The notes under the pieces: model-generated
Database searches by the model: none
Told to the model about the DNA's origin: nothing
What the model saw: only the letters and a program-made list of their open reading frames with translations
Shown here: in pieces, positions 13,076 through 51,476 of the stretch
Position numbering within the stretch: the stretch's first letter is position 1
Layout: the number at the start of each line of letters is the position of its first letter
Source: Candidatus Obscuribacterales bacterium
GTDB lineage: Bacteria; Cyanobacteriota; Vampirovibrionia; Obscuribacterales; Obscuribacteraceae
Assembly: GCA_019744775.1 (NCBI GenBank)
Contig: JAIETZ010000003.1
Location: 558,001 to 622,000 of the forward strand
Reading direction: 5' to 3'
Length of the DNA stretch: 64,000 bases
Program-made: the position numbers and the translations under genes

Positions 13076-13099
13076 TGTAGGGGCGCATTGCATGCGCCC
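13076..13099 (+). repeat. 24-bp palindromic repeat (PR24), copy 1
   Basis: The element has arms GGGCGCA and TGCGCCC around TTGCA, with the one-sided leader TGTAG. It is an exact consensus copy, located between the groEL stop and the groESL terminator. Confidence 0.85.
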
Positions 13100-14789: not shown

Positions 14790-14813
14790 GGGCGTATGCA
14801 ATGCGCCCCTACA
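14790..14813 (-). repeat. PR24 repeat, copy 2, between groES and groEL
   Basis: This is the reverse-orientation palindromic repeat with one arm mismatch (GGGCGTA instead of GGGCGCA). It sits inside the groES-groEL gap, about 50 bp before the groEL start, so it will form a hairpin in the dicistronic mRNA. Confidence 0.8.
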
Positions 14814-15281: not shown

Positions 15282-15380
15282 CGAAGCGGAGCAAGAGCGG
15301 CGAAGAGCCGGTCGCAGTGGAGCGGCCGGGCACAGCCGGATGGCAAGCGAAGGTGTAGGCGTTAGCCGAAACCGGAGCTA
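15282..15380 (+). repeat. Dispersed structured repeat, copy B
   Basis: This copy shares its 5' part with copy A and its 3' part with copy D: AGTGGAGCG, CCGGATGGCAAGCGAAGG, then a short hairpin (GGC GTTA GCC) and CCGGAGC. It directly abuts the stop codon of the GGDEF gene, in the groES upstream region. Confidence 0.65.
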
Positions 15381-17051
15381 TTAGTCAGATTTCTTCTTGA
15401 ACAAAGTCGGCGCCGAACGCATCCAGGGAGAGAACTCCTCCTTAGCGTTTATTACATGTTTCATCTTGGCTTGCCGCTCGCCGACCACAGCCAATCGGGC
15501 TTTGGTAGCCAGCTCTTCCCAGGCAATTGGACCCTGGTTCTGTTGCCCCAACTCAGCCAATTTGACTCTATCTCGGCCTTCGTATTTAGCCACGTCCAGA
15601 GCCTGTTCAGCAGCCTGCAGAAGCTGTTCTGCGTCGGTGGCATTATAAGGACAAGCCGCTAAGCCGATGGAGACTGTCACCATGCCGATTCCGGGGGCTG
15701 TTTTTCCCCGTATCTTCTGGCGCAGGCGGTCAGCCACGTCATTGGCATTTTGCAGAGGTGTTTCCGGCAAGATTATTCCGAATTGCGCCCCGGCTGTGCG
15801 ACAAGGAATATCTATGTCGCGAAGCGTCTCTTTGATAATCGCTGCTGCGTGTTTAATTGCTTCATCGCCTTTGTCTTGTCCGAAGTATTCGTTGACATGC
15901 GAAAGGTGATCAATGTCTATTAGCATAACTGCTAAATCGCGCTTGTGGCGCTGCGATCTCTCAATCTCTTTAGCCAATGATTCTTCAAAGTGCCAGCGAT
16001 TGTAGAGACCGGTATGCGCATCTTCAATTGCTTGAGCAGTCACTGACTCGTGAGTGAGTGCTGTCGACAGGGCTGTCGAGACTTGCGCAACAAGTGATTC
16101 TAATAGTTCAATTTGTTCGCGATGGAAAGCGCGCTGTTCAACAGCGAATACGAGAATTGCACCTAGTGCTTTACCGTCGTGAATCATGGGAATAGCTAAA
16201 GCCGAACCAAAGTTGCTACCGTCGGCAGCCCTTGGCAAGCCATGAGCATGATTGCTGGCATCGGGTAAATATTCCGGTTTGCCGGAGGACATTGCTCGTC
16301 CGGTAATTGTATTGCTTAGCGATAAATCCAATTGATCCATGCCGCGTCCGTCGAAACCTTTGAACGCAGTTACCTTCAGCGCATTTTCCTTTTCCGGATC
16401 GTTGAGCAAAATCATGCAGTCTGAAGTGTTACTTAAAACAAGCACTGTGTCCGCAGCAATTTGCAGAACTTCCGCCACTTTTAAGACACTGGAATTAAGC
16501 GCGCAAGTCGTTTTGTAGAGAGTATTCAGACGCTCACGCTCGAATTCGCTGCGTCCAAAGAGAATGGCATTCGCCACAGCTAGAGCAATAATGTCTGCTA
16601 CTTCTTGCAATATAGGAGCTTGAGCTGCGCCCATTGGATCGGAGAGATCGATGAGTAATGCGCCAACCATTAGTTTGGATGCGATAAGCGGCAAAGCAAT
16701 TTGGGTTTTAGAGTTTTCTCGCTGCATAACTGTATGCGAAATATCAGGGGCAGGTCTTCCTTGACCGGCAGTTGCCGACGCTCTTTTTTGAGCAACTTCT
16801 TTCAATAAGCTTTCAGCCGTAAAAGGAACAATTCGCAATTGCTCCATAGAGGCTTCGGAGTATCCGCGAGCCGACATTAGCTTAAATGCCAAGCCTTCGT
16901 TATCGGCAAGAAAAATGGCTACCTTAGCTCCGCCGGGCAACTCGGACAAGTGCTGGGTTGCAGCTTCCAAGACGTCCTTGAGGCGTAATGAGGTAATGAG
17001 AGCCTTTTGCATGGCCATATAACGCTGCAAAAGGTTGGTATCGCTTATCAT
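15381..17051 (-). CDS. GAF-GAF-GGDEF protein with degenerate active site
   Basis: A 556-residue soluble signalling protein: two GAF domains (about residues 20-170 and 190-340) and a C-terminal GGDEF fold starting at AHTGLYNRWHFEESL. The signature loop is AGAQF instead of GGDEF, so diguanylate cyclase activity is unlikely. The upstream inhibitory motif RxxD (RDID) is preserved at the right spacing, so the domain may bind cyclic-di-GMP as a receptor. The codons were checked in the sequence. No membrane segment is present. The neighbours are groES upstream of its 3' end and a divergent HIT gene. Confidence 0.88.
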   Translation of the reverse strand: MISDTNLLQRYMAMQKALITSLRLKDVLEAATQHLSELPGGAKVAIFLADNEGLAFKLMSARGYSEASMEQLRIVPFTAESLLKEVAQKRASATAGQGRPAPDISHTVMQRENSKTQIALPLIASKLMVGALLIDLSDPMGAAQAPILQEVADIIALAVANAILFGRSEFERERLNTLYKTTCALNSSVLKVAEVLQIAADTVLVLSNTSDCMILLNDPEKENALKVTAFKGFDGRGMDQLDLSLSNTITGRAMSSGKPEYLPDASNHAHGLPRAADGSNFGSALAIPMIHDGKALGAILVFAVEQRAFHREQIELLESLVAQVSTALSTALTHESVTAQAIEDAHTGLYNRWHFEESLAKEIERSQRHKRDLAVMLIDIDHLSHVNEYFGQDKGDEAIKHAAAIIKETLRDIDIPCRTAGAQFGIILPETPLQNANDVADRLRQKIRGKTAPGIGMVTVSIGLAACPYNATDAEQLLQAAEQALDVAKYEGRDRVKLAELGQQNQGPIAWEELATKARLAVVGERQAKMKHVINAKEEFSPWMRSAPTLFKKKSD

Positions 17052-21418: not shown

Positions 21419-21441
21419 GTAGGGGCGCATTGCATGCGCCC
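21419..21441 (+). repeat. PR24 repeat, copy 3
   Basis: GTAGGGGCGCA, TTGCA and TGCGCCC follow the stop of the SGNH gene by 12 bp. It is an exact arm copy, with C in place of the leading T. It lies just past the 3' end of the response-regulator remnant. Confidence 0.8.
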
Positions 21442-29310: not shown

Positions 29311-29333
29311 GGGCGCATGCAATGCGCCCCTAC
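29311..29333 (-). repeat. PR24 repeat, copy 4
   Basis: A reverse-orientation copy with perfect arms, ending CCCCTAC. It is intergenic. Confidence 0.85.
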
Positions 29334-29364
29334 GAGAACTATGCGCTCTTGACAGCTTGAATTT

Positions 29365-29472
29365 GTCATTCTGCGGCGATAGCCGAAGAATCTGCCGTGG
29401 CTATCTCTGGCGCAAGTGATGCAACTCGAACGTGCTGACTTACGGCAGATCCTTCACTTCGTTCAGGATGAC
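29365..29472. repeat. MITE-like inverted repeat of the GTCATTCTG type
   Basis: The ends GTCATTCTG and CAGGATGAC are near-perfect complements, and the inner segments GAATCTGCCGT and ACGGCAGATCC pair too. The total is 108 bp. It resembles a widespread bacterial family of short non-coding palindromic elements with TCATTCTGAG-type ends. It lies beside, and probably downstream of, the response regulator gene. Confidence 0.6.
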
Positions 29473-37030: not shown

Positions 37031-37054
37031 TGTAGGGGCGCATTGCATGCGCCC
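37031..37054 (+). repeat. PR24 repeat, copy 5
   Basis: An exact consensus copy immediately after the terminator and 5 bp before the stop of the convergent LRV-repeat gene. Confidence 0.85.
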
Positions 37055-37767: not shown

Positions 37768-37791
37768 GGGCGCGTGCAATGCGCCCCTACA
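37768..37791 (-). repeat. PR24 repeat, copy 6, in a 5' leader
   Basis: A reverse-orientation copy with one arm change (GGGCGCG). It lies between the predicted promoter and the ribosome site of the small gene at 37817. Confidence 0.8.
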
Positions 37792-47050: not shown

Positions 47051-48475
47051 ATGAATAATGAAGTAAGTGCGGCTTTTGAGCCGTGCCAGACTGAGCCGTC
47101 CGAAAATGTTTTTACCGAAGGTTCGATTGGACGTGCCGTGTGGCAAATGGCTTGGCCATTATTGCTGACGTCCACGTTAAGTTCGTGTGTTGGATTAGTT
47201 GATATGTACATAGCAGGCTTCATGGGTGATGCTGCACAAGCTGCTATCGGTATCGGCGAGCAATTTATTTTCCTTGCTGTGACAATCGGCACAGGATTGT
47301 GCATCGGTTGCCAGGCTTTAATTTCGCGATGTGTTGGCGCTCGACAATTGCAGCTTGCTTGGTTGTACATAAAGGACAGTCTCTATGCTACGACGTTAAT
47401 CGGATTGTTAGCTACGGTGATTGGCATAGTTTTTGCGAAGCAAATATTTTCGTGCTTCGCTGCCGAGCCTGCAGTCACTGAACTTGGTGTTCGCTATCTG
47501 CAGCTAACGTCGCTAGGTAATTTGCCGTTTGTGTTGGCAATGACATTGACGGCGATATTCCGCGCTTATGGCGTACCTCATTATGCGTTGTATGTTTGGA
47601 CAATCATTACGGTAGTAAGTATCGGCTCGGCATTTGCATTTGTATTTAGTGACATGCCGTGGGGTGCGATGTCTGTAGATTCGCTTGCCTGGTCGTGGAA
47701 TCTAGGTGCCACGCTTGGGGTTATTTGTGGTTTTGTATTGTTGGTGAGAGAAGCGGGCGCATGCAATGCGCCCCTACAGGACAAATTTCGCACAATGCTA
47801 CCGTCAGTTACGCGCATGCGTGAGATTCTTGCTCTCGGGTTGCCGGCAACGATAGCCGAGCTGTCTTGGGTTATTTCGAATTTTCTGATGTTTGTGCTGT
47901 TTGCTAATTTCCCGCATGCAACAGAGGCGCAAGCTGCTTGGTCGGTGGCGCATAAGCTCGAAGAGACAGTAGCTTCGTATCCGCTATTGGCTCTGAGTCT
48001 GGCCGCAGCAGCAGTCGTGGGACAAAATCTTGGTGCGGGTAAAACATCGCGTGCATTCAAAGCCGCTTTGGTAATGGCTATCTACGCGGGCGTTGCTATG
48101 TTTGCTGTAGGCTGTATTTTGACTTTGGCATCTGCTCCGCTTGTTTCACTTTTCTCGCAAGATCAATTGGTAGTTCATTACGGGCAATTATTGCTTTCTG
48201 CTTCGCCGATTGTTTTGCCGTTGCTAGCAATATGGCTTGTCTTCTTCGGCGCAGTCGAAGGCGCTGGAGTGACAACTGTACCGATGATTTTCAATGCTGC
48301 TGGTTATCTGCTTGTGCGCTTACCGTTGGCGTGGGCATTGGCAATGCCGGCAGGGCTTGGAATGAACGGCGTGTTCATTGCGCTCTTTGTATCAAGATTC
48401 TTACTGAGCCTGATAGCCGGAATGGTGTTTTTGCGGCGCAGGTGGCTTAAGGTCGGCTTGTTACAGGCTGCTTAG
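47051..48475 (+). CDS. MATE family efflux transporter
   Basis: A 474-residue NorM-like antiporter with 12 predicted helices. The N-half starts SIGRAVWQMAWPLLLTSTLSSCVGLVDMY, and the C-half begins ILALGLPATIAELSW. The ATG was chosen with GGA seven bases upstream; an in-frame TTG four codons earlier is too close to its AAGGG. The loop between helices 6 and 7 is partly encoded by a 24-bp palindromic repeat inserted in frame (47755-47778). The neighbours give no substrate. Confidence 0.92.
   Translation: MNNEVSAAFEPCQTEPSENVFTEGSIGRAVWQMAWPLLLTSTLSSCVGLVDMYIAGFMGDAAQAAIGIGEQFIFLAVTIGTGLCIGCQALISRCVGARQLQLAWLYIKDSLYATTLIGLLATVIGIVFAKQIFSCFAAEPAVTELGVRYLQLTSLGNLPFVLAMTLTAIFRAYGVPHYALYVWTIITVVSIGSAFAFVFSDMPWGAMSVDSLAWSWNLGATLGVICGFVLLVREAGACNAPLQDKFRTMLPSVTRMREILALGLPATIAELSWVISNFLMFVLFANFPHATEAQAAWSVAHKLEETVASYPLLALSLAAAAVVGQNLGAGKTSRAFKAALVMAIYAGVAMFAVGCILTLASAPLVSLFSQDQLVVHYGQLLLSASPIVLPLLAIWLVFFGAVEGAGVTTVPMIFNAAGYLLVRLPLAWALAMPAGLGMNGVFIALFVSRFLLSLIAGMVFLRRRWLKVGLLQAA
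47755..47778 (-). repeat. PR24 repeat, copy 7, inside the MATE coding sequence
   Basis: An exact copy in reverse orientation, 24 bp, so it adds eight codons without a shift. The encoded loop reads EAGACNAPLQDK. It is the only copy inside a gene in this window. Confidence 0.9.
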
Positions 48476-49890: not shown

Positions 49891-49913
49891 TGTAGGGGCG
49901 CATTGCATGCGCC
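49891..49913 (+). repeat. PR24 repeat, copy 8
   Basis: TGTAG, GGGCGCA, TTGCA and TGCGCC, with the last base changed. It lies between the TPR gene start and the DUF1292 gene stop, in the leader of the TPR gene. Confidence 0.85.
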
Positions 49914-49919
49914 TAAATC

Positions 49920-51283: not shown

Positions 51284-51297
51284 TTGGTTACCTTTTT

Positions 51298-51405
51298 CTT
51301 ACGCTCCGGCTCCAGCTAACGCTTCCGCCTTCGCTTGCCATCCGGCAATCCACGCTCCACTTCGCATCGCTCCTCGCGACGCTGCGTTCTCGCTGTGGCC
51401 TGTGA
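51298..51405 (-). repeat. Dispersed structured repeat, copy D
   Basis: Reverse orientation. Read on the minus strand it has AGCGAGAACGCAGCG (as in copy C), AGTGGAGCG, CCGGATGGCAAGCGAAGG (as in copy B), a short AGC GTTA GCT hairpin and GCCGGAGCGTAAG. It lies between the divergent K+ channel and atpD genes. Confidence 0.65.
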
Positions 51406-51476
51406 AATGAGCATACAGTCTACGTTTCCCTTTGTAAATAATCTGAAATTCATTACAGGTATATAGATGTACGTAG

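Follow-up and report, generated by a model that had tools for sequence, protein, structure and literature searches.

A GTAG-class REP lying in frame in a MATE transporter gene of an Obscuribacterales bacterium is shared letter for letter with a sister species

In the 64,000-nucleotide stretch of an Obscuribacterales genome analysed here (the window), a gene for a MATE family efflux transporter carries within its reading frame one copy of a dispersed 23-bp palindromic repeat, a REP of the GTAG class. Taken as a whole, the account that we favour is very probably correct: a single GTAG-class REP would have inserted into the MATE linker in the common ancestor of this genome and its sister species, after the third member of the genus had split off. 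As a single case the MATE REP is ordinary, REP-decorated proteins having been catalogued in 2013 (available text of PMC3733652). What is less ordinary is that the sister species has the same REP at the same place of the MATE gene without a single base changed, although the gene around it has diverged. The two central features of the window are the following:

47051..48475, plus strand: MATE family efflux transporter gene, 474 aa, holding the REP in frame in its predicted inter-lobe loop
47755..47777, minus strand: MATE copy of the REP, GGGCGCATGCAATGCGCCCCTAC, GTAG-class, with GTAG first on the minus strand

Our comparison within the genus involves three genomes, two of them incomplete: the source genome (G000; 4.1 Mb, 13 contigs, 97.8% complete), a Candidatus Obscuribacterales MAG representing a sister species (G001; 77% complete) and a third congener (G002; 88%). 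Read on the minus strand, the REP consists of GTAG and, next to it, a perfect stem of 8 bp (GGGCGCAT/ATGCGCCC) that, when folded, encloses the 3-nt loop TGC, which makes a unit of 23 nt with a hairpin stability of about -13 kcal/mol on either strand. Among 102 copies sampled within 341,705 bases of the source genome, 92 match this unit perfectly over all 23 bp. Base 24, which follows it, is mostly A (49) or G (48) in 101 sampled copies, the base just before it is C or A in 95 of 101, and sequence more than about four bases upstream or two downstream is close to random. The conserved unit is therefore 23 bp long, and not 24 bp as an earlier reading of the sequence alone (the sequence-only reading) had proposed. 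With it falls the argument that a length divisible by three keeps the element in frame, since the MATE copy owes its frame to the bases around the REP; the related idea of spread as a fixed 24-bp unit finds no support either, A and G being about equally common at base 24. As a side observation, the motif AGGAC occurs within 20 nt 3' of CTAC in 17 of 101 sampled copies against 1.2 expected, the enriched downstream stretch including window positions 47778-47783. We rejected AGGAC as part of the element because it lies at varying distances and does not define a longer unit. Rfam gave no match anywhere in the window.

Altogether the window holds eight copies of the 23-mer, five perfect and three with one mismatch, and none at two to four mismatches. 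Apart from the MATE copy these are (strands given by the GTAG-first reading):

13077..13099, plus strand: REP copy, perfect
14790..14812, minus strand: REP copy with one mismatch
21419..21441, plus strand: REP copy, perfect
29311..29333, minus strand: REP copy, perfect; common to the sister species (one difference), absent from the third congener
37032..37054, plus strand: REP copy, perfect; identical in the sister species, absent from the third congener
37768..37790, minus strand: REP copy with one mismatch; perfect in the sister species, where a short tandem array follows
49892..49914, plus strand: REP copy with one mismatch; the third congener lacks it at the orthologous site, and in the sister species the site could not be matched on both of its sides

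Recurrence on this scale is beyond chance: the 19-bp core at up to three mismatches gives 14 matches in the window against 0.02 expected, which correspond to nine places, since a palindromic copy can score on both strands. Genome-wide, the 23-mer at up to one mismatch occurs 203 times in the source genome, 227 times in the sister species and five times in the third congener, a reversed-sequence control giving 0 matches; at up to three mismatches it occurs 229, 240 and 11 times, so that only five of the 11 copies of the third congener lie within one mismatch. The copies of the source genome are dispersed over several contigs and mostly solitary, 94 of the 102 sampled having no neighbour inside 200 bp (84 of those 94 are perfect) and eight having one. 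By a simple home-made codon-usage caller, 94 of the 102 lie outside called genes, four overlap gene ends and four lie inside, in DNA with a called coding fraction of 0.756; one of the four genic copies sits at codon 18, which a wrong start call may explain. At three sites of the source genome (C2:253367, C2:417834 and C2:588864) a called gene apparently takes as its stop codon the TAG within the REP's GTAG end or within a variant of that end. Further dispersed repeats, about 100 bp long and of other families, occur in the window (15283-15381, 29362-29472 and 51290-51406) and have many matches in the sister species and the third congener. Furthermore, exact REP copies occur on two IMG/VR contigs classed as viral, IMGVR_UViG_3300002895_000009 (four matches) and IMGVR_UViG_3300035041_000037 (two; L239-L241 for both), which could derive from the host or from a provirus of this lineage.

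We assign the repeat to the GTAG class on its architecture and not on a match to any of the 24 published consensuses. GTAG-class REPs have an unpaired GTAG, a stem of 5-13 bp and a loop of 2-20 nt, with which our 8 bp and 3 nt agree; they are dispersed in high copy number, as are the copies found here throughout the 4.1 Mb, and they are mainly extragenic, again as here. An associated gene for a REP-associated tyrosine transposase (RAYT), which such families often but not always have, was not found with PF01797 in any of the three genomes of the genus. In their available text, Di Nocera et al. (2013, PMC3733652) describe GTAG-tagged REPs in 24 families, with Cyanobacteria included, and document in-frame copies within genes, DNA repair genes among them. 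Our family resembles theirs in its 5' unpaired GTAG, short perfect stem, 3-nt loop, roughly 200 copies and mostly intergenic placement, in having some copies in frame, with an Lhr-like helicase as our counterpart of the repair genes, and in a GTAG that supplies TAG stop codons; it differs in that nearly all copies are singlets, no tyrosine transposase was found and the host belongs to Obscuribacterales. The Sm REP of the Stenotrophomonas maltophilia REPtron, as described in the accessible part of PMC8266576, is likewise 23 nt long with GTAG, a perfect 8-bp palindrome and a 3-nt loop, but its loop sequence differs, and TnpA-REP cleaves there at CT, whereas no such enzyme was found here.

Two other classes share single traits with the family. 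REPINs, as presented in the portion of Bertels and Rainey (2011, PMC3116915) available to us, are also built of REP palindromes that are presumed transposase substrates, but they are inverted doublets forming a unit and, in Pseudomonas, doublets are better conserved than singlets, whereas the great majority of our sampled copies, like the MATE copy of the source genome, are solitary. Rickettsia palindromic elements likewise show palindromes tolerated in frame in functional proteins, yet they are about 150 bp long and often intragenic, against 23 bp and 4/102 inside called genes here (PMC10969869 and PMC3733652, as far as their available text goes). Our literature queries, only one of which named the lineage, returned no description of such repeats from Obscuribacterales.

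The host gene belongs to the MATE family: its product matches Pfam MatE (7e-42; PF01554, 143 bits, in two stretches over both halves) and scores 170 bits against TIGR00797, above the cut-off of 147. The REP enters the frame at offset 704, in phase 2, and its plus strand encodes AGACNAPL, residues 235-242. When the product is aligned to the solved MATE Aq128, the REP-coded stretch falls at the gapped junction between the halves, which we take to be the loop that connects helices 6 and 7 of the MATE fold. Alignments of relatives also gap there, and by hydropathy the REP-coded residues lie in a hydrophilic trough, the preceding hydrophobic stretch ending near residue 233. Homology and hydropathy thus support a location in the loop that would join the two six-helix halves, where the sequence-only reading had placed the repeat, and its central claim of a palindromic repeat in frame within a MATE coding sequence stands. 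An AlphaFold model with the sister orthologue (L061) as its sole homologue has a pLDDT of 37, too low to be informative. Between the source genome and the sister species, dN/dS of the MATE gene is 0.065 by NG86 (dN 0.061, dS 0.94) and 0.081 by YN00 (dN 0.056, dS 0.69); the gene is under purifying selection even with the REP and, in the sister species, with an added array. It is therefore plausibly a working gene, as had been supposed.

Relatives place the insertion in time. The MATE orthologue is 91% identical to that of the source genome in the sister species and 79% in the third congener; the former has the REP at the identical codon and with identical nucleotides, and the AGACNAPL segment is absent from the latter and from eight more distant homologues. 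Presence in the one and absence from the other indicate that the insertion is derived and older than the split between the source genome and its sister. A simple gain of eight residues, which had been expected, is not what the linker records, its length from a conserved Leu to a conserved Pro-Ser being 22 residues in the source genome against 21 in the third congener; in addition, three residues just before the REP in the sister species are missing from the source genome. The alignment of orthologues that had been suggested as a check yields neither a clean empty site nor a target duplication from the congeners, because the gene of the third congener is too diverged and its linker differs in length by one residue. 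The outcome that had been named as a refutation, orthologues writing the same residues with other codons, did not appear.

These data also bear on the reading in which AGACNAPL belongs to the ancestral protein and its likeness to the REP arose by chance or through later gene conversion from REPs. A linker only one residue longer than that of the third congener would suit it, as a REP could have overwritten existing linker sequence. Chance, however, does not produce an exact 23-bp match to a 203-copy family, given the 0.02 core matches expected in the window, and both the absence of the residues from the third congener and the eight distant homologues and the identity of the codons in the sister species argue against an ancestral peptide, which we regard as exceedingly improbable. 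The earlier suggestion that the gene bears a copy of a dispersed palindromic repeat is supported.

In the sister species the site has gone further. The REP, single in the source genome, is paired only there: it is followed by an in-frame tandem array of 54 bp x 4.1 with an inverted REP at its end (array and end REP at L061 3714-3986), which shows a genic REP site growing an in-frame tandem repeat and leaves the exporter loop a net 83 residues longer, bearing out the tolerance claimed for this loop. A mis-assembly or chimera in place of a real expansion is conceivable in a MAG contig of 9.7 kb from a genome that is 77% complete, but the array units differ from one another (95% matches), the reading frame is uninterrupted over the entire product and the gene sequence is intact on both flanks, so an artefact seems very unlikely. 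The core of the array was found only in this MATE gene when searched across all three genomes, and we rejected the 54-bp unit as a dispersed mobile element on that ground. The array is likewise missing from the MATE gene of the third congener and from the eight more distant homologues. A second case of array growth beside a REP was seen at the sister site of window 37768-37790 (L103/L096), where the REP is followed by a tandem repeat of about 24 nt with degenerate palindromes.

The MATE gene is one of three clear internal genic cases in the sample. The other two, also in frame and identical in the sister species, lie in an Lhr-like helicase (G000:C4:65888-65910, L123), whose counterpart in the third congener is 36 nt shorter at the site and without the REP, and in a protein with a Pro/Thr-rich linker (G000:C3:673764-673786, L188). 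Within the three REPs, all 15 fourfold sites are unchanged between the source genome and the sister species, against expected fourfold identities of 0.51 (MATE), 0.69 (Lhr) and 0.64 (third gene), a result biased by the choice of one of the three sister loci for its perfect REP. The MATE REP alone, with six of six fourfold sites unchanged (P = 0.017), is a weak test.

The earlier reading also suggested that the element spreads, and ongoing spread finds no support in the comparison. Of 21 sites of the source genome in three regions, the sister species allowed a match on both flanks for 16, and the REP is present at 14 of these, the remaining two being rearranged and not cleanly empty; for the same 21 sites in the third congener, 10 were matched and none has the REP. 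This distribution points to an expansion of the family before the source genome and its sister split, either after the third congener had separated or with later loss there. The Y1 transposase model PF01797, which finds matches in five of 14 control genomes, E. coli included, has 0 matches at E <= 0.001 in the three congeners. In the wider family, a Y1 transposase occurs in four of five REP-bearing genomes searched. In another genus of the family (G019:C105, L236), a Y1-type frame of 195 aa has inverted GTAG hairpins of related stem sequence near positions 248 and 907, a REPtron-like arrangement; with a Y1 gene flanked by such hairpins, the usual system exists nearby.

It follows that an actively mobile 24-bp element, with the MATE copy as a recent insertion, is very unlikely. 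The near-identity of the copies (92/102 perfect) would by itself suggest recent spread, and copy number does differ sharply between species. Nevertheless, the unit measures 23 bp and base 24 varies, the MATE copy and 13 of 15 other mappable sites are common to the sister species despite a flank difference of about 10% and a MATE synonymous divergence of 0.7-0.9, no clean species-specific site appears among the 16, and no Y1 transposase was found in the congeners.

Copies at shared sites hardly differ between the two sister species. Over the 14 sites REP identity is 320/322, and at nine sites with undisturbed flanks, chosen for their freedom from large indels after the alignments had been viewed, it is 206/207 against 962/1074 (89.6%) in the flanks, compared over 60 bp on each side (Fisher p = 3e-8). 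The five sites left out (618806, 625720, 627729, 595768 and 605755) have REP identities of 23, 23, 23, 22 and 23 of 23 and flank identities of 0.57, 0.89, 0.56, 0.70 and 0.62, the latter depressed by indels. A raw Fisher test over all 14 sites (REP 304/322, flanks 1338/1635, p 8e-10) includes one MAFFT misalignment and array-disturbed flanks; the misalignment is the 7/23 that MAFFT gives at C2:627729, for which the 23/23 of the direct comparison was used. Direct comparison mapped 29 of the 102 sampled sites on both sides; C3:512851, mapped across a wide gap and probably paralogous, was left out, and at C4:58013 the REP agrees at 23/23. Loci L198-L229, picked for a perfect REP, were left out of the invariance statistic.

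Neutrality, under which REP and flanks would be equally identical, is disfavoured by these counts; the gap between them suggests that shared REPs are subject either to homogenisation or to constraint on copies that no longer move. Gene conversion between REPs was reportedly proposed long ago, by Higgins et al. in 1988. On the other hand, the near-identity could stem from selection and not conversion: each copy may be under purifying selection for a hairpin function, such as binding a host DNA-binding protein or folding in the mRNA, which would also account for the retention of the copy inside the gene. This possibility, which competes with gene conversion over how the copies are maintained and not with the identification of the REP, is in our view real but on the unlikely side. 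Near-invariance at the 14 shared sites, the lack of decayed intermediates in the window and a hairpin that is stable on either strand speak for it, while the copies vary in orientation and in position relative to genes, it is hard to see what a copy in the linker of a membrane protein would regulate, and three genomes do not separate selection from conversion.

Returning to the insertion of a single REP into the MATE linker, we can sketch a course of events that would fit these observations. By analogy with other GTAG REP families, the original copying would have been done by a RAYT, whose gene is now presumably absent or unrecognised in the genus. The MATE insertion may have become fixed because this linker tolerates extra or changed residues, copies elsewhere in genes having probably been mostly eliminated (94/102 outside genes in DNA that is 76% coding). 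Since the split of the two sister species the family would have stayed in place without spreading, its copies being kept near-identical through ectopic gene conversion or because selection acts on the hairpin sequence. The MATE site of the sister species additionally bears the local 54-bp in-frame array and the inverted second REP.

The point of possible importance is the constancy of the REPs against their diverging flanks and the synonymous sites of their host genes, in a genus in which the usual transposase was not found. Tentatively, and at somewhat less than even confidence, we propose that several hundred mostly solitary REPs are kept letter-perfect at shared, fixed positions, coding sequence included, without a recognisable RAYT, and that concerted evolution or host selection maintains them. 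Orthologous genic REPs, set against the synonymous clock of their host genes, make conversion, selection and continued copying directly testable. If the proposal is true, ectopic gene conversion between copies of only 23 bp, or host selection, would keep up a population of REPs that do not move, at odds with the view that inverted doublets are the conserved, transposase-dependent form.
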